From an uncultured Candidatus Nemicrothrix sp. (lineage in GTDB: Bacteria > Actinomycetota > Acidimicrobiia > Acidimicrobiales > Acidimicrobilacustridaceae), in assembly GCA_903867185.1 (NCBI GenBank), contig CAIPQK010000145.1:1-36883 (forward strand): DNA of 36,883 nucleotides. Direction: 5' to 3'. Under the pieces are notes generated by a model. It ran no database searches, was not told where the DNA came from, and saw only the letters and a list, made by a program, of their open reading frames with translations. Both the position numbers and the translations under genes were made by a program. Positions 11,760-22,637 of this stretch are shown piece by piece (within the stretch, counting starts at the first letter, position 1; the number at the start of each line of letters is the position of its first letter).

Positions 11760-12365
11760 ATGACGCTGCTCCTTGCCGAAACCGGATACGAAGTCCATGC
11801 CGTCGTCGTCGGACCCATGGACAACAACGTGTTCGTCGTCCGCTGCACCGAGACCGGCGATGGAGTGCTCATCGATGCGGCCAATGAGCATGAACGGCTC
11901 TTGGAATTATGTTCGGCCCTTGGCGTTCGCCGCGTCATTGAAACGCACGGACACTGGGATCACATTCAAGCCGTACCCGCAGTTCGCGATGCCGGATACG
12001 ACGTTGCTGTTACTGCTGCCGATTCAGAAATGCTCGAGGCCTACGACAGCATTTTGGAAGATGACAACATCATCGAAGTTGGCCGACTTCGTCTTCGCAC
12101 GATCGCCACGCCCGGACACACTCGCGGATCAATGTGTTTCGCTCTTGAGGGAAGCCCACTGATGTTCTCGGGCGACACCCTTTTCCCAGGTGGTCCCGGA
12201 AACACCTCGTTCGAGGGCGGCGACTTCGCCACCATCATCGATTCACTCGACCAACGCCTCTTCACCTACAGCGCCGACACCATCGTGCTTCCGGGCCACG
12301 GCAACTGGACCACCATTGGCCATGAACGACCCCATCTGCAGGAGTGGGTCGATCGGGGCTGGTGA
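11760..12365 (+). CDS. Metallo-beta-lactamase-fold hydrolase (glyoxalase II-like)
   Basis: The 201-aa protein is a compact MBL-fold hydrolase. The metal ligands are THGHWDH (HxHxDH) around residues 62-68, GHTRGS, SGDTLF and the terminal LPGHG. This motif set is that of hydroxyacylglutathione hydrolase-like enzymes, but the C-terminal glutathione-binding domain of true glyoxalase II is missing, so the thioester or other substrate is unknown. The frame is open back to 11556 through sequence with no family resemblance; ATG 11760 gives the normal N-terminus. It is followed after 72 bp by the suf operon with its own promoter. Confidence 0.82.
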   Translation: MTLLLAETGYEVHAVVVGPMDNNVFVVRCTETGDGVLIDAANEHERLLELCSALGVRRVIETHGHWDHIQAVPAVRDAGYDVAVTAADSEMLEAYDSILEDDNIIEVGRLRLRTIATPGHTRGSMCFALEGSPLMFSGDTLFPGGPGNTSFEGGDFATIIDSLDQRLFTYSADTIVLPGHGNWTTIGHERPHLQEWVDRGW

Positions 12366-12384
12366 CCCTCTTCACAGGCCCCGC

Positions 12385-12405
12385 AATTTCTCCTACGGCG
12401 GTAGT
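12385..12405 (+). promoter_or_regulatory. Putative suf operator, copy 1 (upstream of sufC1)
   Basis: The 21-mer starts with AATTTCTCCTA and contains the palindrome CTAC-GGCG-GTAG at 12393-12404. The first 11 bases are identical to those upstream of sufD and sufB. The palindrome covers the expected -35 region of the sufC1 promoter, whose -10 is TAGACT at 12425, which would suit repression. Confidence 0.65.
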
Positions 12406-12424
12406 GCGAATCCCCCAGAGGTTC

Positions 12425-12430
12425 TAGACT
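12425..12430 (+). promoter_or_regulatory. Putative -10 element of the leaderless sufC1-sufS-sufU promoter
   Basis: TAGACT matches TAnnnT and ends 7 nt before the sufC1 ATG at 12438. There is no ribosome binding site between them, so the mRNA is probably leaderless. Confidence 0.5.
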
Positions 12431-12437
12431 GCTGCCC

Positions 12438-13187
12438 ATGTCCCCCCTCTTTGCTATCGAGGATCTCCACGTCGCCACGGCCGGCGAGAACCCTGTCGAG
12501 ATCCTGCGCGGCGTTGACCTCGCCATCGGCACCGGAGAAGTCCACGCCCTGATGGGCCCAAATGGCTCTGGCAAGTCGACCCTCGCTTCTGCACTCCTCG
12601 GTAGCCCCGAGTACCAAGTCACCTCGGGCCGCATTCTGTTCAAGGGCGACGACGTCACCGCATGGCCCACCGATGTTCGTGCCAAGGCCGGCATGTTCCT
12701 CGCCTTTCAATACCCACAAGAAATTCAGGGCGTCTCCGTTCTGAACTTCCTGCGCCAAGCGTGGTCAGCACGACGCGGCATCGATCTTTCGATGCTCGAG
12801 CTTCGGCTTGAAATCATGGACTGGATGACGCGTCTCGATATGGACCCATCGTTCGCCGATCGCTACCTCAACGAGGGTTTCTCCGGCGGCGAAAAGAAGC
12901 GCAACGAGATTCTTCAGATGGCGATTCTTCAACCCGAAATCGCAATCCTCGACGAAACCGACTCAGGTCTCGATATCGACGCGTTGCGTGTTGTCGCTAA
13001 GGGCGTGCGCGAAGTTCTCGCGGCCCGTCCCGAACTCGGCATTCTCGCCATCACCCATTACCAACGTTTGCTCGACGAACTCAATCCGTCGTTTGTGCAC
13101 GTTCTTATCGACGGCCGAATCGTCGAATCAGGTGGTCCAGAACTTTCTCGCAAACTCGAAGCCGAGGGATACGACGCATGGCTGTAA
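12438..13187 (+). CDS. sufC: SUF iron-sulfur assembly ATPase SufC, paralogue 1
   Basis: SufC is the ABC-type ATPase of the SufBCD scaffold complex. In this 249-aa copy Walker A GPNGSGKST is at residues 40-48, the Q-loop AFQYPQEIQGVSV at 89-101, the signature FSGGEKKRNE at 148-157, and Walker B runs into LDETDSGLDID at 171-180, the SufC hallmark. The H-loop is AITHYQRLL. It differs clearly from the second SufC at 16485-17261. Its stop overlaps the sufS start by 10 bp, so it heads a sufC-sufS-sufU operon. A suf operator lies upstream. Confidence 0.93.
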   Translation: MSPLFAIEDLHVATAGENPVEILRGVDLAIGTGEVHALMGPNGSGKSTLASALLGSPEYQVTSGRILFKGDDVTAWPTDVRAKAGMFLAFQYPQEIQGVSVLNFLRQAWSARRGIDLSMLELRLEIMDWMTRLDMDPSFADRYLNEGFSGGEKKRNEILQMAILQPEIAILDETDSGLDIDALRVVAKGVREVLAARPELGILAITHYQRLLDELNPSFVHVLIDGRIVESGGPELSRKLEAEGYDAWL

Positions 13188-14425
13188 GCGTCGACCCCAT
13201 CGACGGAACCGCAATGAAGGCGCAGTTCCCGCTCCTTTCTCGCGAAGTACATGGCAAGCCGATCGTTTATCTCGACTCGGCCGCAACTTCGCAGAAGCCG
13301 ATTGCGGTTCTGGATGCGATGGACGACTACTACCGCACGATTAATTCGAACGTGCACCGTGGTGTCTACATGATCGCCGAAGAAGCCACGAACCGCATGG
13401 AAATTGCTCGAGCACTTGTTCGAGATTTCATCGGTGCTCGTTCATCATCAGAAATCATCTTCACCAAGAACGCAACCGAGGCACTCAACCTTGTTGCTCA
13501 AGGTTGGGGCCGAGCAAACCTTGTGGCTGGCGACGTTGTCGTACTGAGTCACATGGAGCATCACGCCAACATCGTTCCGTGGCACATGCTTGTCGCTGAA
13601 ATTGGCATTGAACTTCGCTGGATCCCACTCGATAGCGAAGGTCGCCTCGATCTCACCGAACTCGACACGTTGCTTAACGGGGCCAAGGTGCTTTCCGTAA
13701 CAGCGATGTCGAACGTTCTCGGAACCATGAACCCTGTTCGCACCCTTACAGACGCCGCTCGCAAAGCCGGCGCGATCAGCATCATCGATGGCTGCCAGTC
13801 AGTTCCTCACAGCGCCACCAACGTTCAAGAACTTGGGGCCGACTTCGTTGCCTTCTCCGGCCACAAGATGTGCGGCCCAACCGGCATCGGCGTTCTTTAC
13901 GGTCGCGAGGAACTCCTCGAAGCAATGCCTCCGTTCCTCGGTGGCGGCGAAATGATTCGCGATGTTCGTCTCGACGGATTCACCACCAACGATCTTCCTT
14001 GGAAGTTCGAAGCCGGCACTCCCCCCATCGCCGAGATCATCGGGCTCGGTGCCGCGGTTGAATGGCTTAATGGTGTGGGCATGGACAACATTCGAGCTCA
14101 CGAAATCGCTCTCACCGAATACACAATCTCGACACTCCACGGACGGTTCGGTGATCGCATCCGCATCCACGGGCCATCGAGCCCGGCCGAACGCGGCGGA
14201 GTCTTCAGTTTCGATTTCGATGGCCTGCACCCCCACGACATTTCACAGGTGCTCGATCAGCATGCGGTCTGCGTTCGTGCTGGCCACCATTGCGCCAAGC
14301 CCCTCATGAAACTCCTCGGTATCGGCGCCACCGCCCGCGCTTCGGTCTACGTCTACAACGACACGACCGATATCGATGCCCTCGCCGACGCCCTCGATGC
14401 AACTGGCGCGTTCTTCACCCTCTAG
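13178..14425 (+). CDS. sufS: Cysteine desulfurase SufS
   Basis: SufS is a PLP-dependent group II desulfurase that takes sulfur from cysteine for cluster assembly. In the 415-aa protein, YLDSAATSQKP lies at residues 31-41, the PLP-anchoring Lys is K230 in AFSGHKMCGPTGIG, and the persulfide-carrying Cys is C372 in VRAGHHCAKP, as in group II enzymes. The ATG lies inside the end of sufC1 (10-bp overlap), implying coupling. The sufU partner follows 43 bp later. Confidence 0.96.
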   Translation: MAVSVDPIDGTAMKAQFPLLSREVHGKPIVYLDSAATSQKPIAVLDAMDDYYRTINSNVHRGVYMIAEEATNRMEIARALVRDFIGARSSSEIIFTKNATEALNLVAQGWGRANLVAGDVVVLSHMEHHANIVPWHMLVAEIGIELRWIPLDSEGRLDLTELDTLLNGAKVLSVTAMSNVLGTMNPVRTLTDAARKAGAISIIDGCQSVPHSATNVQELGADFVAFSGHKMCGPTGIGVLYGREELLEAMPPFLGGGEMIRDVRLDGFTTNDLPWKFEAGTPPIAEIIGLGAAVEWLNGVGMDNIRAHEIALTEYTISTLHGRFGDRIRIHGPSSPAERGGVFSFDFDGLHPHDISQVLDQHAVCVRAGHHCAKPLMKLLGIGATARASVYVYNDTTDIDALADALDATGAFFTL

Positions 14426-14468
14426 TCCCCTACGCTCACAACAACCCCACGCACAGGGAGTGCCGCCA

Positions 14469-14942
14469 ATGCCCGGCCTCGAAGACCTCTACCGAGAGAT
14501 CATCCTCGACCACTACCGCAACCCGCGTAACCGCGGCGAGCTTGAAACCCCCCCGGCGCTTCGCGTCGAGGGTTTTAATCCGCTGTGCGGCGATGAAATC
14601 GTGCTGTATCTCGACTTCGATGCCAACGGTGGCGTGGCCGACATTCGTATCTCGGGTCAGGGCTGCTCAATCAGCCAGTCGTCAGCCTCAATGATGTCTG
14701 CCGCAGTCAAGGGAAAGTCCGTTGCCGAAATCGACGAACTCACGCGCGCATTCAAAGCGATGATGTCGATTCACGAAAACACCCTCGAAGGCGCCGAGAC
14801 CGCCGAACCAATCGATGCCCCCGACGTGAAACTCGGCGACCTCGAAGCACTCCGTGGCGTCGTGAAGTTCCCGGTTCGCATCAAGTGCGCAACGCTTGCC
14901 TGGAACACGCTCGCTCAAGGCATCGAAGAAGCTTCCGCCTGA
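14469..14942 (+). CDS. sufU: SufU zinc-dependent sulfurtransferase
   Basis: SufU accepts sulfur from SufS via a zinc-bound Cys. The 157-aa protein has the ligand set C40 and D42 (FNPLCGDE), C66 (GQGCSIS) and C140 (RIKCATLAW), the SufU-type pattern, with the 18-20 residue insertion that separates SufU from IscU. The frame is open upstream to 14376, but GGGAG 8 nt before ATG 14469 and the family-typical MPGLEDLYREIILDHYRNPR set the start. It ends the plus-strand suf operon and converges on the P450 gene. Confidence 0.94.
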   Translation: MPGLEDLYREIILDHYRNPRNRGELETPPALRVEGFNPLCGDEIVLYLDFDANGGVADIRISGQGCSISQSSASMMSAAVKGKSVAEIDELTRAFKAMMSIHENTLEGAETAEPIDAPDVKLGDLEALRGVVKFPVRIKCATLAWNTLAQGIEEASA

Positions 14943-14966
14943 GCAGTTTCTGGTGCTTTAACTCGT

Positions 14967-16178
14967 TTACGGAACGAACTCGTAACGAATAGGGCACGTG
15001 TCAACATGATTGACCATTACTCGCGGTAACCACTTCGACTCACCAGTGAGTTCAAGGTTGCGAGTGTGCGCGGCAATCGCTAGGGCTGTTTCTTGCAGTT
15101 CGGCGCGAGCCAATGCCTGACCAAGGCAGAAGTGCGGGCCCATGCTGAACGTAAATGACCACATCGTTGGGTCACGAGTGATGTCGAAGCGATTCGGGTC
15201 CTCGTAGCGAAGTGGATCGCGATTTGGACCACCGATAATCGTGGTGACCGCTTCACCTGCGTCAAATTGCAGCCCAGCCAGTTCGGTGGCCTTTGTCGTC
15301 TTATTCCCCGACGCATAGAACCCAGGTCGAAACCGCAAAACCTCTTCCACCGCGCCACGAACTAACTCTTCGGGATTCGATCGGAGAAGTTCGAGTTGGT
15401 CCGGGTGTCGAGCGAACTCGAGGAACATCGAGGTCATCACGCTCGAGGTCGTTTCGATCGCGCCAGCGAAGATATTGGTGAAGAGGACAATGAGTTCTTC
15501 ATTGCTAAGTCGGTCGCCATTCTCTTCGACTTCGATCAGACGAGTCAGAAGATCATCTCGAGGTTCTGCTCTTCGACTTTCAACGAGTTGGCCTACGAAC
15601 TCCATCGCTACAGCAAATGTTGCATTGGCACGATCGCGAATCTCCTGAGTGACGTTCGGGCCAAATGCGTCACCAGCACCGCCTTGCATCTTCTGACCAA
15701 CCTCTGCCGCTTCAGCCGGAGAGATTTCAAGGAACGAGGCGATTGAAAGAAACGGAACGATTCGAATGTGTTCGCGCACATCGAATTCACCTGTATCGGC
15801 ATGACGTTCAAGAAGGTCCCGCACATGTTGGCGAACCACTGGACGAACTATGTCGGCCGACTTCGGGGTGAGGGCCCGATTCACTAAGCCACGCAAACGG
15901 CGGTGGTCCTCGCCGTTCAGCGCTCCAATCGAATAGCGCCGCCATTCATAGAGCGGATCTCCCGGCTTGAAGCCACGAGCCTCGATGTACTCGAGTCCCT
16001 CGTTGATGAACTCGGGTCGCTTCTTAATTTCTTCGGCGTCGTCCCAACGCAGGATCGCTTTGATCCCCTCTGGCGTAACTGCCGTGCGATGGTTCTCCCG
16101 CAGCTCAGCAAGAATCGGATACGGATCCGCCCAATAGACATCCTCATCGAGTGGAACGACGGGAAGGTTGGAGGCCAT
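14967..16178 (-). CDS. Cytochrome P450
   Basis: A soluble bacterial class I P450 of 403 aa. The heme-binding loop FSMGPHFCLGQALAR has the axial Cys at C351. The I-helix oxygen-activation motif reads AGAIETTSS at 238-246, with Glu in place of the usual Asp. The K-helix ExxR is E279-R282. It lacks any membrane anchor and needs an external ferredoxin and reductase; no dedicated partner other than the Rieske gene two genes upstream is in the window. The substrate is unknown. It is the last gene of the sufD-Rieske-sufC2-PCD run, 13 bp after the PCD stop. Confidence 0.93.
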   Translation of the reverse strand: MASNLPVVPLDEDVYWADPYPILAELRENHRTAVTPEGIKAILRWDDAEEIKKRPEFINEGLEYIEARGFKPGDPLYEWRRYSIGALNGEDHRRLRGLVNRALTPKSADIVRPVVRQHVRDLLERHADTGEFDVREHIRIVPFLSIASFLEISPAEAAEVGQKMQGGAGDAFGPNVTQEIRDRANATFAVAMEFVGQLVESRRAEPRDDLLTRLIEVEENGDRLSNEELIVLFTNIFAGAIETTSSVMTSMFLEFARHPDQLELLRSNPEELVRGAVEEVLRFRPGFYASGNKTTKATELAGLQFDAGEAVTTIIGGPNRDPLRYEDPNRFDITRDPTMWSFTFSMGPHFCLGQALARAELQETALAIAAHTRNLELTGESKWLPRVMVNHVDTCPIRYEFVP

Positions 16179-16191
16179 TACGACGATCCTG

Positions 16192-16488
16192 TCAGATGCT
16201 GATGACTCCGTCGATGCCCTTTGCTAAAGCGAAGCATCGTTCGGTTGGTCCACCACTGTCATGACTGGTGATATCGATCACGACGCTGTTCCAAACATTG
16301 GACCAATTCGGGTGATGATCGAGTTCTTCGGCAACCGGAGCAACCCGATTCATGAACGCCCAGGCTTCAGCGAAGTTGGCGTAGGTGAACTCGCGATGCA
16401 GATGCCCATCGACCATTTCCCATTCGGGAACGCTCACCAATCGATCGGCGACTTCTTCAGCAGAGAGGACGCGATCCCGAGGGCTCAT
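16192..16488 (-). CDS. Pterin-4a-carbinolamine dehydratase family protein
   Basis: The 98-aa protein matches the PCD/PhhB family, which dehydrates 4a-hydroxytetrahydropterin or acts as a molybdopterin-related accessory. The motif with EELDHHPNWSNVW followed by the third His (ITSHDSGG) is intact. The Asp that normally follows eight residues later is a Cys here (PTERC), so the last element of the signature is altered. The ATG overlaps the sufC2 stop by 4 bp (ATGA), which makes coupling likely. No aromatic amino acid hydroxylase is visible nearby. Confidence 0.85.
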   Translation of the reverse strand: MSPRDRVLSAEEVADRLVSVPEWEMVDGHLHREFTYANFAEAWAFMNRVAPVAEELDHHPNWSNVWNSVVIDITSHDSGGPTERCFALAKGIDGVISI

Positions 16489-17261
16489 GCGAATGGATCG
16501 GCGAAGGGGTCAGCAGCAGCCGGCGGCGCTTCGTCTTCGGCCCACTCGGCATAGCCAGTGCGCTCGAGTTCGTCGGCGAGATCGGGGCCGCCAGCGGCAA
16601 CGATGCGACCTTGGGCCAGCACATGCACGACATCGGGCTTCAATTCTTCGAGAAGACGTGAGTAATGCGTAATGGCAAGAACGCCGAGATTGAATTCGGT
16701 TGTTGCCGCTTCAACGCGGCGCGAGCACGCACGAAGGGCGTCGACATCGAGACCAGAGTCGAGTTCATCGAGAATGGCGAACTTCGGACGAAGGACGGCG
16801 AGTTGCATGGTTTCGTTGCGCTTCTTTTCGCCACCGGAAAGGTCGACGTTCACGGGACGATCAAGAAGTCGGGTGGCCAAACCAATGCGTTCAGCTTCGG
16901 CAGCAACGGTTGTGTGAACAACCGAGGAGTCGCGACCAAGCGCCGAGAGGGCTTCAGTGAGGAGCTCTTCAAGACTGACGCCAGGGACCTCGACCGGATA
17001 CTGCATTGCCAGGAAGAGTCCGGCTTTCGCTCGTTCGTAGGTGGGAAGCCCGAGGAGATCAACACCGTCGATCGATACCGAACCACCGGTGACGGTGTAG
17101 CCGGGCTTGCCCATCAGTACATGCGAAAGCGTTGACTTACCTGCGCCGTTCGGGCCCATGACGGCATGAACCTCGCCCGACTTCACGACAAGATCGACAC
17201 CATTCAGGATCTGGCGACCAGCAACCTCGGCCGTAAGTCCTTGAATTCGAAGTTCACCCAT
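16485..17261 (-). CDS. sufC: SUF iron-sulfur assembly ATPase SufC, paralogue 2
   Basis: This second SufC has 258 aa, Walker A GPNGAGKST at residues 36-44, AMQYPVEVPGVSL at the Q-loop, signature LSGGEKKRNE at 141-150 and Walker B into LDELDSGLDVDAL. It ends in an acidic Pro/Ala-rich tail with DPFADPFA. It sits in the normal actinobacterial context sufD-Rieske-sufC, so it is probably the orthologue of the usual SufC, whereas paralogue 1 belongs to the sufS-sufU operon. The frame is open upstream to 17564 inside the Rieske gene; ATG 17261 starts 1 bp after the Rieske stop and gives the family N-terminus. Confidence 0.94.
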   Translation of the reverse strand: MGELRIQGLTAEVAGRQILNGVDLVVKSGEVHAVMGPNGAGKSTLSHVLMGKPGYTVTGGSVSIDGVDLLGLPTYERAKAGLFLAMQYPVEVPGVSLEELLTEALSALGRDSSVVHTTVAAEAERIGLATRLLDRPVNVDLSGGEKKRNETMQLAVLRPKFAILDELDSGLDVDALRACSRRVEAATTEFNLGVLAITHYSRLLEELKPDVVHVLAQGRIVAAGGPDLADELERTGYAEWAEDEAPPAAADPFADPFA

Positions 17262-17262
17262 G

Positions 17263-17577
17263 TCAGTCGATCTCCACGTACACGTCGGCATCGTCGATGC
17301 GCACGACATAGGTCGGAACAGCTTTGGTCGCGGGAAGAGAATTCGGGATGCCAGTTTCGAGCGAGAAGCAACTGCCGTGTTTCGGGCATTCGAGTTCACA
17401 GGACTTCGGGTGCACTTCACCCTCGGAGAGCGAGACATCGAGATGGGTGCAGCGATCACCAATTGCGTAGAACGCGCCGCCGATATGGGCGAGAGCGATA
17501 CGCACAGACCCAAAATCGAATCGTCGAACCTCGCCAACGGGAACATCCTGGACAGAACAAACACGTTCGAGCGTCAT
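17263..17577 (-). CDS. Rieske [2Fe-2S] ferredoxin-type protein
   Basis: A 104-aa single-domain Rieske ferredoxin. The ligands are C43 and H45 (CTHLD) and C64 and H67 (CPKHG). It resembles the ferredoxin subunits of ring-hydroxylating dioxygenases, but no oxygenase is present; a Rieske gene between sufD and sufC is common in actinobacterial suf operons. It may donate electrons during cluster assembly or to the downstream P450; that is inference. Its ATG overlaps the sufD stop by 4 bp. Confidence 0.92.
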   Translation of the reverse strand: MTLERVCSVQDVPVGEVRRFDFGSVRIALAHIGGAFYAIGDRCTHLDVSLSEGEVHPKSCELECPKHGSCFSLETGIPNSLPATKAVPTYVVRIDDADVYVEID

Positions 17578-18809
17578 GAGTTCACTCCTGCATCAAGTCG
17601 TTCATCGATTGCGGCCGCAATCAACGGCACTGCAGCAGCGACCGGGAACTCTTCAAGGACTTCGTCGAAGAATCCGGCAACAATCAATCGCTCAGCGATT
17701 TCGGTCGGCACGCCACGACTTTCCAGGTAGAAGACCTGTTCTTCGTCCACCGGACCAACAGTTGATGCGTGGCTGCACTTCACATCGTTCGTTTCAATTT
17801 CCAGATTCGGCACCGACTCCGCCCACGCAGTGTCGGAAAGCTTCAGATTGCGATTGGTCTGGAAGGCGTTCGTGCCCCGTGCGTCTTTTTCAACACGAAT
17901 GAGGCCGGTATAAATCGAGCGGGAATGCCCGCCAACGGCACCCTTGAACAAAAGGTTGGAGTTCGTATCGGGCGCCGCATGATGCTGAAAGGTGCGGAAA
18001 TCAAGCGTTTGCGAACCAGTGCCGAAGTACACGGCGCTGAGGTTGCCCGTTGCCCCACGGCCAATGAGTTCGCAATCGGTACGCATGCGGCCGTAGTCGC
18101 AACCGAGGCCAGCATGCGACGAGGTCAGTGTGCCGTCGTTGAGCACACGACTCACCTGTGAAGCGATCTGCCACACACGCGGACCACGCATTTGCACATT
18201 GCCGTACGACAAGCGTCCGGCGCGATCGACGTCGAGTTCGACAAGCGGAGAAACGAGTGCAGTGATATCGGCTGAACCATGCCAGTCGAGAATGCGCACA
18301 TCGGCATCGGCGCCGACCCGCACAACAAGGCGAGGGTAAACAGCCGAACCATCGATATCGATCCAATCGATAATGGCGATCGGTGCGTCGACCGTGACAC
18401 CGGCGGGCACATGCACGAGCACGCCATCGAGGAAGTGGGCATCGTTGAGGCGACCGAACACATCGGGCCCGCCATCGGCCACAACGCCGAGCGAGGTCTG
18501 CGCATCGGGGCCATCGACTAACGAGCCGACGTAGACACCCTTCGCCACAAGCGCTTCGTCGAGTCGTGCCGCAACCACGGAACCGTTTCGAACCACGACA
18601 CTGCCGGCGAGATGACCCAGGGAGTCGAGAAGCGCAGCCGCTCCAGCGGGAACACCCTCGGATCGATCGCTGACAATGGCCCATTGGCTCAGATCGACAT
18701 CGGCAACGCGGCTGTAACGCCAGACCTCTTCTTCGGAGGAAGGCATGGCGAACTGGTCCGTTTGGACGGCCGCGGAACGTCGATCAACAAGCCACTGGGG
18801 GGAAGACAC
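17574..18809 (-). CDS. sufD: SUF scaffold protein SufD
   Basis: SufD pairs with SufB and SufC as the cluster assembly scaffold. The 411-aa protein has the right-handed beta-helix core of the SufB/SufD family, with TLTSSHAGLGCDYGRMR, DFRTFQHHAAPDTNSNLLFKG and KCSHASTVGPVDEEQVFYL SRG-type C-terminal motifs. The start is a GTG. It lies 7 nt after a TAGGAT -10 hexamer with no Shine-Dalgarno, so the transcript is probably leaderless. The shared suf operator overlaps this -10. Confidence 0.93.
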   Translation of the reverse strand: MSSPQWLVDRRSAAVQTDQFAMPSSEEEVWRYSRVADVDLSQWAIVSDRSEGVPAGAAALLDSLGHLAGSVVVRNGSVVAARLDEALVAKGVYVGSLVDGPDAQTSLGVVADGGPDVFGRLNDAHFLDGVLVHVPAGVTVDAPIAIIDWIDIDGSAVYPRLVVRVGADADVRILDWHGSADITALVSPLVELDVDRAGRLSYGNVQMRGPRVWQIASQVSRVLNDGTLTSSHAGLGCDYGRMRTDCELIGRGATGNLSAVYFGTGSQTLDFRTFQHHAAPDTNSNLLFKGAVGGHSRSIYTGLIRVEKDARGTNAFQTNRNLKLSDTAWAESVPNLEIETNDVKCSHASTVGPVDEEQVFYLESRGVPTEIAERLIVAGFFDEVLEEFPVAAAVPLIAAAIDERLDAGVNS

Positions 18810-18816
18810 GGGAATA

Positions 18817-18822
18817 ATCCTA
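18817..18822 (-). promoter_or_regulatory. Putative -10 element of the leaderless sufD promoter
   Basis: On the minus strand TAGGAT ends 7 nt before the sufD GTG at 18809. Its first three bases are also the last bases of the operator palindrome, so a bound regulator would block RNA polymerase directly. Confidence 0.5.
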
Positions 18823-18839
18823 CCCGCATAGGAGAAATT
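18819..18839 (-). promoter_or_regulatory. Putative suf operator, copy 2 (upstream of sufD)
   Basis: Read on the minus strand, the 21-mer starts with AATTTCTCCTA and contains CTAT-GCGG-GTAG, with an outer C-G pair (CCTA...TAGG). The left 12 bases equal those of the sufB copy. It overlaps the -10 of the sufD promoter. Confidence 0.65.
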
Positions 18840-18848
18840 ACGGCCAGT

Positions 18849-19193
18849 TTAGGAACGCCCGAATCTCCGCTTCAGTCGACCCATCCGGCTATTGGCTTTC
18901 TTCTGCTCGGCTTCGAGTTCAGCGAGGATCTGCGGACCAATGGCGTTCACAATGTCTTCGGCCTCATCGAGGACTTCGGCAATGCCTTCGCCTTCGGGTT
19001 CAGGGGGAACGGGTGGAGCAATGAGCGACCCATGGCTCCAGTCGACATCAACAAGGCGCAGTTCGAACTTGGAACAGTTCTCGGGGCATCGCCAAGGAGC
19101 TTCGGGAGCCAGGTCGAGATTGCACTTCCGCACGGTCTCACCGTTGGCGTAGCTGCGACTTTCGTACTGCTTACATTCCTCACGCATCGACAT
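18849..19193 (-). CDS. Conserved hypothetical protein with N-terminal Cys cluster
   Basis: The 114-aa protein has four Cys in its first 40 residues (C7, C24, C36, C40), with the segment APWRCPENCSKFE, followed by a Pro/Glu-rich linker and a charged C-terminal helix ending RMGRLKRRFGRS. The Cys spacing is compatible with a zinc or iron-sulfur site, but I do not recognise a named family. Similar short proteins occur in other actinobacteria as far as I recall. It lies 39 bp upstream of sufD on the same strand, and that gap holds the suf operator, so a role in cluster assembly or sensing is possible but unproven. Confidence 0.72.
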   Translation of the reverse strand: MSMREECKQYESRSYANGETVRKCNLDLAPEAPWRCPENCSKFELRLVDVDWSHGSLIAPPVPPEPEGEGIAEVLDEAEDIVNAIGPQILAELEAEQKKANSRMGRLKRRFGRS

Positions 19194-19216
19194 AGTTAAA
19201 GTCTCGCATTCTCAGA

Positions 19217-19999
19217 TCAGGAATCCAACGCGAGCCCAAGATCAGGCGAGCGGGTCAATCGCCAACGAGCTGCGGTGACGACCGCAATTGCTCCCAAGGT
19301 CGCAGCGAGCAGGGTGCACACCAAACTCACCGGTGTAACTGAATCGTTGAGCAACAACACGCCACCAAGCGCCGTGAACAACGCGTTGATCTGCGCACTG
19401 GCCGCAACGGCAGTAACTCCAGCGGCCGGCAGCGCCGCTGTTCGCAATACGCGCCCGACGGTACCGAACAGCGCAACGGCGAGTGCTGCAGCCAATGCAC
19501 CCCAAATTGTCCACGGTTGCTGCAGGGTGCCAAAGATCAGACCGAGGGGAAGGAGAACGATGCTCCCGCTGATCATTGTTGAAGAAACGATTGTCGTTGG
19601 GTTGAGTCCATCTTCCACAGCCAGTTCCGAAGTTCGCAACCCAATCACTTCAACCGCAACAAACCCAACGGCTATCGCGGCACCGGCCCAGGTCACTGAA
19701 TCGACGCCGTCTCCCCCGGCAGCGACCGTAAGCCCGATAATCGCGGCGAGCGAAGACCCCAATGCTGCAAAGGTTGAGAATCGGCCCGAGCGATCGCGCA
19801 CCAACAATGCAACAGCCGGTGTGCACGCGAGCGCGAGTCCGGCAAGAGGTCCATCCAGAGTTCGGAACATCGTTCCGGCCGCAACAAGCCCAACCAACTG
19901 GATGGCGACGGCGATTCGACCCGAACGGACACGCAGTGGATCGAGCCAGGACCCTGCTCCCTGACGACGAGCAATTGCCACCGCAACGAGCGCTCCCAT
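19217..19999 (-). CDS. EamA/DMT-family transporter, start uncertain
   Basis: The product is very hydrophobic with about nine to ten membrane helices and the internal duplication of drug/metabolite transporters (for example MGALVAVAIARRQG near the start, and a late repeat with SAQINALFTALGGVLLLNDS). From ATG 19999 it has 260 aa and lacks the first helix of the family. The same frame stays open upstream to the sufB 3' end and encodes what looks like that helix (DVLISSVLFAGCNIAWRYG), yet contains no ATG, GTG or TTG. A CTG at 20128, an ATT at 20125 or a small frameshift would explain this. It lies just downstream of sufB. The transported substrate is unknown. Confidence 0.75.
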   Translation of the reverse strand: MGALVAVAIARRQGAGSWLDPLRVRSGRIAVAIQLVGLVAAGTMFRTLDGPLAGLALACTPAVALLVRDRSGRFSTFAALGSSLAAIIGLTVAAGGDGVDSVTWAGAAIAVGFVAVEVIGLRTSELAVEDGLNPTTIVSSTMISGSIVLLPLGLIFGTLQQPWTIWGALAAALAVALFGTVGRVLRTAALPAAGVTAVAASAQINALFTALGGVLLLNDSVTPVSLVCTLLAATLGAIAVVTAARWRLTRSPDLGLALDS

Positions 20000-20172
20000 G
20001 GCAACGCGGAAACCGACAATGCCGATTGCCGGGCCGCTGCCATAGCGCCACGCGATATTGCAGCCTGCGAACAGGACCGACGAAATGAGAACGTCGGCAA
20101 CAGCGCGATGCTCGCGCCGTTCAATCAGATGTGTGTCGTTCGCGTCGATGACGTGAGCGTAAGGCAGCCGAA

Positions 20173-21576
20173 CTAGCCGACTGAACCTTCCATCTGCAGT
20201 TCAATGAGACGACTCCACTCCACCGCGTATTCCATTGGCAGTGTGCGAGTGATCGGTTCAATGAAACCGTTGACGACCATGCCCATGGCCTGTTCGGAAG
20301 AAAGACCGCGACTCATGAGATAAAAGAGCTGTTCTTCGGCAACCTTCGAGACCGTTGCCTCGTGGCCGATGACTGCATCGCCCGAACCGATTTCCATATA
20401 CGGGAATGTGTCAGAGATGGATTCATCGTCGAGGATAAGTGCGTCGCACTGCACGTGGCTCTTGCAGCCGTAGGCATCGTCTTCGACGCGGATGAGACCG
20501 CGGTACGAGGTGCGGCCGCCGTCTTTGGAGATCGACTTCGAAACGATCTTCGAGGTGGTCTCGGGCGCGGCGTGAACCATCTTCGAACCAGTGTCTTGAT
20601 GTTGACCAGGGCCGGCATAGGCAACAGACAGAACCTCACCCGATGCCTTGGGGCCAACGAGCCACACCGCTGGGTACTTCATGGTGAGACGAGAACCAAT
20701 GTTTCCGTCGATCCATTCCATGTGGCCTTCGGCTTCAACACGAGCACGCTTGGTGACGAGGTTAAACACGTTGTTCGACCAGTTCTGGATGGTCGTATAC
20801 GTAACGCGAGCACTGGGCTTGACGATGATTTCAACGACTGCTGAATGCAGCGAGTCGGAGGTATACACCGGCGCCGAACATCCTTCGATGTAATGAACCT
20901 GACTGCCTTCGTCGGCGATGATCAGCGTGCGTTCGAACTGACCCATGTTTTCCGCGTTGATGCGGAAGTAGGCCTGCAGCGGCATTTCGACTGAAACGCC
21001 CGGTGGGACATAGATAAACGAGCCACCTGACCACACTGCGGAGTTGAGTGCAGAGAACTTGTTGTCGTTCGACGGAATAACGGTGCCGAAGTAGGCACGA
21101 ACGATTTCGGGATGCTCACGAAGCGCTGTGTCCATATCGGTGAAGATGACGCCTTGTGCTTCAAGATCTTCACGGTTTTTGTGGTACACAACTTCGGATT
21201 CGTACTGCGCGGTAACGCCGGCGAGGTACTTGCGTTCGGCTTCGGGGATTCCGAGCTTCTCGTAGGTTTCCTTCACTGAGTCGGGAAGTTCATCCCACGC
21301 ATCGACCTGATGATCGGTCGGCTTGATGTAATAGAAAATGTCGTCGAAGAAAATCTCTGACATGTCGCCGCCCCAGTTGGGCATCGGACGCTTGAGGAAT
21401 TGTGCGTAGGACTTGAGGCGGTAATCGCGCATCCAGTCGGGCTCGCCCTTCATCCACGACATCTCTTTGATGATGTTTTCGTCGAGGCCGCGCTTGGGCT
21501 TAAAGACGTAATCCTCAGCGTCGCTCCAGCCGAGTTTGTACCGGCCGAGGTCAAGATCAAGTTCGGTGCTGGCCAT
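20173..21576 (-). CDS. sufB: SUF scaffold protein SufB
   Basis: SufB is the main scaffold on which clusters are built. The 467-aa protein has the expected length. It shows the N-terminal [18 protein letters not shown] block, [19 protein letters not shown], the beta-helix core with HYIEGCSAP, and the C-terminal [11 protein letters not shown] segment, whose Cys matches the family's essential scaffold Cys, followed by [21 protein letters not shown]. The ATG has GGAG 7 nt upstream. Unlike most actinobacteria, sufB is not next to sufD: an EamA gene and a Cys-cluster gene lie between. A promoter with the suf operator between -35 and -10 precedes it. Confidence 0.96.
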
Positions 21577-21600
21577 CAGGGGGCTCCAGGAGGATGGTTG

Positions 21601-21630
21601 AGATAATTTCTCCTATGGCGATAGTAACAA
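21601..21630 (-). promoter_or_regulatory. Putative sufB promoter
   Basis: On the minus strand TTGTTA (21630-21625) is followed after 18 bp by TTATCT (21606-21601), and the sufB ATG lies 24 nt further with GGAG in between. The whole suf palindrome fits within the spacer. Confidence 0.5.
21605..21625 (+). promoter_or_regulatory. Putative suf operator, copy 3 (upstream of sufB)
   Basis: The 21-mer reads AATTTCTCCTA followed by TGGCGATAGT, with the palindrome CTAT-GGCG-ATAG at 21613-21624. It lies on the strand opposite to sufB, whereas copies 1 and 2 point along their genes, as expected for a nearly symmetric protein-binding site. It fills the spacer of the sufB promoter. Confidence 0.65.
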
Positions 21631-21668
21631 ATACCCCGGGCCAATCAACCCTCTAAGGGCACATTCCC

Positions 21669-22637
21669 TTAGGACTGACCAGAATCGCCGGAACTGGCGA
21701 ATGCCGCTTTCAGCCGATTGAAGCCTTCATCGAGGCCAACCGATGGCTCCCAACCGAGGATCCTTCTTGTCTCGCGCTGGTCAAACCAGTGGGCGACCGA
21801 TAACTGTCGAGCGGCGAAATGGGTGAGTGGCGGCTCAGAGCCTGGCCACACCCGATCGAGGGCCGAACCGATCCGAGCGGCAATTGGAGCAGGTATCGAC
21901 CTGGGCGAGCGAGTGACTCCTGCAGCCTCAAGAATCGAAGCAACCAGATCGCGTAACGGGCGCGGTTCGCCGCCAGTGACAACCAGTGGCGCCAGCGTCG
22001 CTTCGTCGCCCGCGTTGCAGTGATTGAGCGCGGCGACGATCGCTGTCGCCGCGTCGTCGACATAGGTCGTGTCCACCAGCGCCCGCCCGCCATCGGGCAG
22101 CGCCAATCGACCCGAGCGAGCACGATCAACGATTCGACCGATGAGTTGCGTGTCGCCAGGGCCCCACACCAGATGCGGACGAATCATGACCGTCGGAACG
22201 GTTGTTTCTTTGCGCACGAACGATTCGGCCATGGCTTTTGAGCGCGTGTATCCGTCGCCTCCGTCGTAGTCGGCGGCGAGCGCCGTCGATCCGACACTGG
22301 GAGCGTCGTGAAAGGCCACCGACGGACTCGAAATATGCACAAACCTGCCGCTCGCCGTTGCCGCCGCCAGTGCGTTGCGAGTTCCGTCAACGTTGATGGC
22401 CAGCATCTCGTTCCACGACGCTTTCGGAGCAACAAGGGCAGCAAGGTGAATCACCGCATCGGCATTGCGTGCTGCGTGCAGAACAGCCGAGCGATCGCGA
22501 ATGTCGCCTCGATCATCGATTGCAGTTGAGCCCGATGCGCTGCGTTGAAAACAGACCACATCGTCACCCCGCGCCACAAGGAGATTCGCAACCGTCCTGC
22601 CAAGAAGACTCGAACCGCCCGTGACGAGAACCTTCAT
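21669..22637 (-). CDS. oleD: OleD, NADPH-dependent 2-alkyl-3-ketoalkanoate reductase
   Basis: OleD reduces the beta-keto acid made by OleA to the beta-hydroxy acid in long-chain olefin synthesis. The 322-aa extended SDR of the 3-beta-HSD type has VTGGSSLLG at residues 5-13, a conserved Ser in HISSPSV (about 103-104), and the catalytic Y130 and K134 in YTRSK. On sequence alone it could be any NAD-dependent epimerase-like reductase; the assignment rests on its position directly after oleA and oleBC. Its ATG overlaps the oleBC stop by 4 bp. Confidence 0.85.
   Translation of the reverse strand: MKVLVTGGSSLLGRTVANLLVARGDDVVCFQRSASGSTAIDDRGDIRDRSAVLHAARNADAVIHLAALVAPKASWNEMLAINVDGTRNALAAATASGRFVHISSPSVAFHDAPSVGSTALAADYDGGDGYTRSKAMAESFVRKETTVPTVMIRPHLVWGPGDTQLIGRIVDRARSGRLALPDGGRALVDTTYVDDAATAIVAALNHCNAGDEATLAPLVVTGGEPRPLRDLVASILEAAGVTRSPRSIPAPIAARIGSALDRVWPGSEPPLTHFAARQLSVAHWFDQRETRRILGWEPSVGLDEGFNRLKAAFASSGDSGQS

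Follow-up and report, generated by a model that had tools for sequence, protein, structure and literature searches.

A 26-bp dyad at the suf promoters of an acidimicrobial genome: probable operator of a SufR-like regulator encoded on another contig

We describe a short palindromic element in a stretch of DNA from an uncultured Candidatus Nemicrothrix sp. of the class Acidimicrobiia (assembly GCA_903867185.1, contig CAIPQK010000145.1); the whole stretch, 36,883 nucleotides in length, is referred to as the window. The window carries suf genes for the assembly of iron-sulfur (Fe-S) clusters, which NCBIfam and Pfam models place in three units, each behind one copy of the element: sufC1-sufS-sufU on the forward strand, and sufD-Rieske-sufC2 and sufB on the reverse strand. 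The genes and the putative operators are the following.

12386 to 12411, forward strand: putative operator of sufC1-sufS-sufU, ATTTCTCCTACGGCGGTAGTGCGAAT
12438 to 13187, forward strand: sufC1, SufC ATPase (TIGR01978, 304.7 bits, cut-off 212.8)
13178 to 14425, forward strand: sufS, cysteine desulfurase (TIGR01979, 550.2 bits, cut-off 475.1)
14376 to 14942, forward strand: sufU (TIGR01994, 147.8 bits over residues 35-183, cut-off 92.5); its actual start may lie further inside the open reading frame
16485 to 17261, reverse strand: sufC2, starting at residue 102 of a longer open reading frame, 16485-17564 (TIGR01978, 276.8 bits, match from residue 105)
17263 to 17577, reverse strand: gene for a Rieske [2Fe-2S] protein, between sufD and sufC2 (PF00355, E 4.7e-17)
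17574 to 18809, reverse strand: sufD (TIGR01981, 222.8 bits, cut-off 222)
18813 to 18838, reverse strand: putative operator of sufD-Rieske-sufC2, ATTTCTCCTATGCGGGTAGGATTATT
20173 to 21576, reverse strand: sufB (TIGR01980, 710.3 bits, cut-off 346.4)
21606 to 21631, forward strand: putative operator of sufB (gene on the reverse strand), ATTTCTCCTATGGCGATAGTAACAAA

An earlier reading of the window from its letters, here called the original prediction, had proposed that one palindrome is repeated at all three suf units. Exact copies of AATTTCTCCTAYNNNNRTAG indeed stand at 12385-12404 (forward), 18820-18839 (reverse) and 21605-21624 (forward), and their Y/R bases are those listed in that prediction. 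These three are the only matches in the window even when three mismatches are allowed; by comparison, 100 dinucleotide shuffles of the window hold 0.21 matches on average (standard deviation 0.43, maximum 2), and none of the 100 reaches three. The stretch common to all three copies is AATTTCTCCTA.

The original prediction also called for a scan of the whole genome. The complete assembly (2.57 Mb in 232 contigs) holds four exact matches, none at one or two mismatches, and ten at three; with up to three mismatches allowed, the reversed pattern, taken as a control, matches 28 times. The pattern is thus rare in the assembly, with its four exact matches, rather than occurring at random frequency. 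The fourth exact match lies outside the window, at G000:C75:52691-52710, between a gene for an mrp/ApbC-type Fe-S carrier ATPase and a gene for a SufR-like regulator. With all four sites located, every exact copy in the assembly is found at Fe-S assembly genes, one of them at a regulator, and the predicted regulon includes this fourth promoter region as well.

The element is better written as ATT-N4-CTA-N6-TAG-N4-AAT, 26 base pairs (bp) in length. In an alignment of 98 sites from relatives, the CTA/TAG bases mirror each other as complements in 97-100% of cases, partly by construction, since CTA and TAG are part of the search pattern. Eleven and twelve bases out from the centre, where TT stands on one side and AA on the other (the AA side lying outside the search pattern), the figures are 98% and 96%, so the dyad is longer than originally described. 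The outer Y/R bases, which the original prediction took to co-vary, do not: this position is complementary in 48% of the sites, and its two bases combine as C-A 42 times, T-A 27, C-G 20 and T-G 9, as expected if they are independent (Fisher p = 0.50, n=98). In the window, all of the outer arm (ATT/AAT) is present at sufC1, and two of its three bases at sufB and at sufD.

The gene beside the fourth site (L015:7725-8444), which we refer to as sufR in the counts below, encodes a winged-helix protein of 239 residues; it starts just after the site and is followed by a gene for a NifS/IscS-like cysteine desulfurase. Its start region reads TAGAAT, six bases, GTG, and by reading of the sequence the gene is probably leaderless. 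The N-terminus is an ArsR/DeoR-like winged helix (PF12840, HTH_20, 41.4 bits, cut-off 27, E 1.4e-10), and the protein is the sole SufR-family match in the window's genome at the cut-offs used. Three cysteines, C186, C199 and C233 (C-x12-C-x33-C), are invariant in all 19 aligned orthologues.

A search of PDB sequences with the regulator gives a best E-value of 0.21. In an AlphaFold model built from 19 sequences (mean predicted local distance difference test score 70.8, predicted template modelling score 0.50), a winged helix is followed by a C-terminal domain, and ArsR-type structures are among the best fold matches of the model. For the C-terminal domain, the predicted sensor, this moderate-confidence model points to TRAPP/Bet3 as the closest solved folds (Z up to 12.9), followed at Z about 10-11 by the PoxR, MopR and DmpR sensor domains, known as V4R domains. 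Foldseek returns no match to the model at E ≤0.001, and no link between SufR and V4R was found in the open-licence literature.

Among relatives, we began from the genes rather than from the site: for each gene start, the 150 bp upstream were searched for the closest match to TTTCYCCTAYNNNNRTAG, which counted as a success at two mismatches or fewer. The sample is drawn from relatives in the same order and comprises 88 loci, with a minimum identity and a near-complete N-terminus required for each gene; near-identical loci of the same genus (L045-L055) and paralogue loci (L137-L145) are left out. As a control, the same upstream stretches were read backwards. The site is found before sufB in 38/39 genomes, before sufC1 in 16/16, before sufR in 30/41 and before sufD in 14/29, and the reversed control is zero for each of these four genes. 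It also precedes mrp in 30/37, although mrp adjoins sufR and can share its site. Genes internal to the units yield no site at any of 100 starts (sufC2 0/25, sufS 0/18, sufU 0/21, nifS 0/36). Orientation relative to the gene is fixed: reversed at sufB in 38/38 cases, and forward at sufC1, sufD and sufR in 60/60. The site is accordingly kept at the same suf promoters in relatives, the conservation on which the original prediction had staked its claim.

Two further sets of loci extend the count for sufR. Among 80 loci from named records, mostly from Acidimicrobiia or unplaced actinobacterial metagenome-assembled genomes, plus Aquihabitans sp. G128, the site lies before sufR in 45 within two mismatches, and the reversed control gives 0/80 even at three. 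In Aquihabitans sp. G128, whose genome is complete, the match ahead of the regulator gene is free of mismatches (L176). Another 62 loci of the class yield 29 with the site, against 1/62 for the reversed control; these counts come from pattern matching, a generic dyad finder having been too noisy to use. By group, the 62 divide into 9/22 (L241-L262), 0/13 (family f23) and 20/27 (L276-L302), the last including ten loci from nine families (L292-L301) that all have the site.

The site and the regulator also occur together across the class. In a tally of 247 class members, a strict pattern (at most one mismatch) is present in 88 of the 98 genomes that have a strong regulator orthologue (E≤1e-85), in 43/85 with a weaker orthologue, and in 10/64 with none or one weaker than 1e-30. 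The two bin limits were set after the E-values had been seen, genomes absent from the results of the orthologue search were counted as regulator-free, and at most 11 candidates were scored per genome. We also compared 40 genomes hand-picked from the 223 that have sufB, 20 on each side: a sufB site (two mismatches or fewer) is present in 18/20 genomes with the regulator versus 3/20 without it (p = 3e-6), where P-values take genomes as independent although they are related and kinship is uncorrected. The reversed control upstream of sufB is 0/40 in these genomes. Among 61 genomes searched, G056 has neither the regulator nor the sufB site. In G058, whose regulator is 44-46% identical, the sufB site reads CAA-N6-TTG instead of CTA-N6-TAG, a symmetric change seen in this single case.

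Computation thus finds a site that is rare, placed before the genes of the suf units and the regulator, conserved, and accompanied both by the regulator gene and by that regulator's conserved cysteines, and we conclude that the 26-bp site is very probably the binding site of the SufR-like protein. More fully, we consider it very likely that the element serves as operator for an autoregulated, Fe-S-sensing repressor of SufR-like type that has its own half-site and is encoded elsewhere, on contig C75. The original prediction had envisaged one cluster- or iron-sensing repressor of the Rrf2 or SufR kind. The second of these alternatives is favoured by the fourth site at a SufR-like gene and by the rarity and conservation of the site; the first finds no support, the candidate being of the ArsR/SufR type.

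Several observations weigh against this interpretation. The regulator scores 32 bits against the SufR_cyano model, far below the cut-off of 178.8, in a weak but long match (residues 37-206 of 239); the model is itself narrow, since in a control set only 1/14 genomes exceeds the cut-off while 13 have some match. The regulator gene lies away from the suf genes of the window. No sufR site within two mismatches is present in 11 of the 41 relatives of the gene-first test, including G011 and G013 of the same genus, in which the regulator is present, nor in 35/80 of the named-record loci and 33/62 of the further class loci; the latter include 13/22 of L241-L262, 2/5 in family f47 (L283 and L284) and 13/13 in family f23 (L263-L275). 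Because so many sufR loci have no site within two mismatches, autoregulation through this site is not universal. The sufD gene likewise has no site in 15/29, and the strict pattern is missing from 10 of the 98 genomes with a strong orthologue. Conversely, G040, G123, G259 and G277 keep a sufB site, and no regulator orthologue was found in them at the cut-offs used. Finally, the class-wide tally takes matches anywhere in a genome, not at suf genes alone, and a reversed control succeeds once at two mismatches or fewer in the gene-first test (nifS, 1/36), as well as once in the 62 further loci.

The sufB promoters of family f23 (L346-L357) carry the site within two mismatches in 10/12 cases and within three in the remaining two. 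In this family the regulator has diverged, and most sufB promoters keep CTA-N6-TAG with changed flanks, for example GTTAGTACTA...TAGG.

IscR and other Rrf2 regulators exert Fe-S-sensing control over suf genes in other bacteria. An alternative is that an Rrf2-family protein of the IscR or CymR kind binds the site and controls both suf and the SufR-like gene, and the genome does contain two Rrf2 genes above the Pfam cut-off. We judge this very unlikely. The four exact sites are on contigs C75 and C145, but the Rrf2 genes are on C24 and C165, contigs without an exact site, and one of them adjoins an open reading frame that by eye resembles a sulfate-assimilation gene of the cysN/cysC type. The SufR-like gene, on the other hand, has the site in many relatives and co-occurs with it, co-occurrence having been checked for this gene and not for Rrf2. 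Nor is the regulator itself an Rrf2 protein, as IscR is: it scores 12.9 bits against PF02082, where the cut-off is 30. We have accordingly rejected Rrf2 as the regulator in favour of the ArsR/SufR-type candidate.

The apparent placement of the site over promoters bears on a second alternative. One arm of the element, ATTTCTCC, is near-constant, and the other differs by promoter, with consensus TAGTAaCAA at sufB, TAGTGc.AAT at sufC1, TAG.gT.aaT at sufD and TAGGTAgAATAcc at sufR. By reading, this variable arm appears to overlap putative promoter parts: TAGAAT at sufR, TAGGAT or TAGTGT at sufD, and TGTTACTAT on the gene strand of sufB. In the window, two such promoter parts can be named.

18822 to 18817, reverse strand: probable -10 of sufD, TAGGAT, seven bases before the GTG start, by reading
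within the reverse complement of the sufB operator: possible extended -10 of sufB, TGTTACTAT

The original prediction had the sites overlapping promoter elements at all three suf units. Overlap with a probable -10 is read at sufD and sufB, and at sufR outside the window, but at sufC1 the probable -10 (TAGACT, 12423-12428) may lie downstream of the site. A scan for the sigma-70 consensus over 12000-22000 gives 2 sites versus 3.1 expected in shuffles, so these assignments depend on the eye.

Such overlap with probable core promoter parts (RTAGGTAGAAT at sufR, TGTTACTAT at sufB) is also what one would see if the element were a promoter sequence recognized by a sigma factor rather than the operator of a repressor, and 15 of the 30 sufR sites within two mismatches stand at the same distance, 31 bp, from the extrapolated start, with more variation among the remainder and at the other genes. 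However, the element is reversed at sufB and forward at sufC1, sufD and sufR, its dyad symmetry spans 26 bp, and it tracks the presence of the SufR-like gene. With a varying arm that appears to overlap promoter parts and an orientation fixed in each class, the element agrees with a repressor site in which the promoter has overwritten the second half-site, and not with a sigma-factor element, which seems to us marginally less probable even than an Rrf2 regulator. We attach the same slight probability to use of the site by an iron-dependent regulator (Fur, DtxR/IdeR) or as an RNA element: IdeR-dependent suf induction is reported in Mycobacterium tuberculosis (PMC10848736), but Rfam has no match at gathering scores over 12000-22000, and hence no known RNA element, sufR and sufD sites just before probably leaderless starts together with a reversed sufB site are ill-suited to such an element, and the pattern has no exact match away from Fe-S assembly genes and the SufR-like gene.

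We return, then, to the SufR-like repressor and to how it might act. In known SufR systems the cluster-loaded protein represses suf and the apo-form releases it (PMC10848736, PMC8593673). By analogy with SufR, in which the loaded form is the repressing one, we envisage a holo-repressor dimer over the core promoters; binding, dimer, cluster, repression, signal and exact promoter positions are all things that we infer for the present system. A dimer of the regulator would presumably be bound at ATT-N4-CTA-N6-TAG-N4-AAT. When clusters are sufficient, the regulator would carry a cluster on its three conserved cysteines, and in this form would occupy the four sites and hold down sufC1-sufS-sufU, sufD-Rieske-sufC2, sufB, mrp and its own gene. 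On loss of clusters, through lack of iron, nitric oxide or oxidants, the apo-protein would leave and the assembly genes would be turned on together. The analysis supplies, for a single actinobacterial class, a candidate regulator, a putative operator of 26 bp and a few predicted targets: the suf units, mrp and the regulator.

The likeness to SufR of cyanobacteria and of Streptomyces avermitilis is considerable. There as here, a winged-helix N-terminus is joined to a C-terminal domain with cysteines, and the site, a dyad of short half-sites 6 bp apart, is found at suf and at the regulator's own gene; the latter holds in the window's genome and, for the own gene, in 30/41, 45/80 and 29/62 of the three sets of loci above. 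The S. avermitilis site overlaps the -10, according to a 2025 paper that treats Corynebacterium glutamicum (PMC11995493). The differences concern the half-site and the gene order. The SufR operator is given as CAAC-N6-GTTG, again with half-sites 6 bp apart (PMC8593673, PMC11995493), a pattern that the present site, CTA-N6-TAG with outer ATT/AAT, does not match; and the present regulator adjoins mrp instead of lying within a suf operon, and would serve three separate suf units plus mrp. In M. tuberculosis the suf repressor SufR (Rv1460) requires C203, C216 and C244 for its function, spaced C203-x12-C216-x27-C244, and sufR heads the suf operon (PMC6034842). The two proteins share three C-terminal cysteines beginning with C-x12-C, the last gap being 33 here and 27 in Rv1460, but differ in that the present gene lies outside the suf operon. 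The regulator would work like SufR but falls below the SufR_cyano cut-off, and its putative operator is not CAAC-N6-GTTG; because it fails these two tests of SufR in the narrow sense, we call it SufR-like. No report of SufR in Acidimicrobiia was found in the open-licence literature, so an account may already be in print elsewhere, and a search for the letters of the conserved arm together with suf returned no title on suf control among the matches listed.

In many relatives a further gene for a SufR-like protein, with about 30% identity to the present regulator, adjoins a second copy of mrp; in the window's own genome it was not found at the cut-offs used. At the promoter of this paralogue, most loci of L137-L140, L142, L144, L145 and L306-L325 carry a dyad of a different kind, GATTYTACCGG-N6-CCGTGTAA. 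Of 29 loci considered, six are excluded, five because they have no mrp and one because it gives no paralogue match, and among the remaining 23, all mrp-linked, the core CCGG-N6-CCGTG is present within one mismatch in 18, compared with 4/23 for the reversed control. The pattern CGG-N6-CCG was read off seven loci that are themselves among these 23; in the 16 loci obtained after the motif had been seen, the core is present in 11, and in the reversed control in 3. The CTA-type site is absent from the 23 loci, the best matches having 4-5 mismatches. CAAC-N6-GTTG, looked for in four loci of a second sufB and nine of the SufR paralogue, occurs in 1/13 (L138, at 1674, inside mrp2).

The paralogue dyad therefore shares its 6-bp spacing with CTA-N6-TAG and CAAC-N6-GTTG but differs in its half-site. 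We offer, as a tentative proposal with slightly less than even chances, that the SufR-like family keeps one operator geometry, a 6-bp gap between half-sites close to the -10, but has diversified in the letters of the half-site: CAAC-N6-GTTG in cyanobacteria and Streptomyces, CTA-N6-TAG in the suf regulon of Acidimicrobiia, and CGG-N6-CCG at the paralogue. If so, two such circuits would run insulated from each other in one cell. The pair of paralogues is also material for studying how a SufR-like protein reads its half-site.

The suf genes themselves call for a few remarks. Because the Rieske gene overlaps the open frame upstream of sufC2, mechanical calling of open reading frames makes sufC2 about 100 residues too long. 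A fused N-terminal domain on sufC2 was considered and rejected: the extra length is only an out-of-frame overlap with the Rieske gene, and sufC2 begins at about 17261. The sufC gene occurs twice in one suf locus, in sufC1-sufS-sufU and in sufD-Rieske-sufC2, both copies scoring above the SufC cut-off, and the pair is retained in many relatives. Some relatives (G024, G055, G036 and G027; L111-L114) also have a second, distant suf cluster, with SufB 41-42% identical, and in the stretch examined around these clusters neither a CTA-type site nor CAAC-N6-GTTG was found. In three relatives, G023, G049 and G046, tblastn splits sufB into two pieces on the same strand, separated by 1.1-1.3 kb (L104, 7439-9991; L106, 6261-9106; L107, 2073-4679). 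In G023 and G046 both pieces lie within one open frame, of 1007 and 886 residues respectively. This suggests that an element such as an intein is inserted in frame in sufB of these two genomes.

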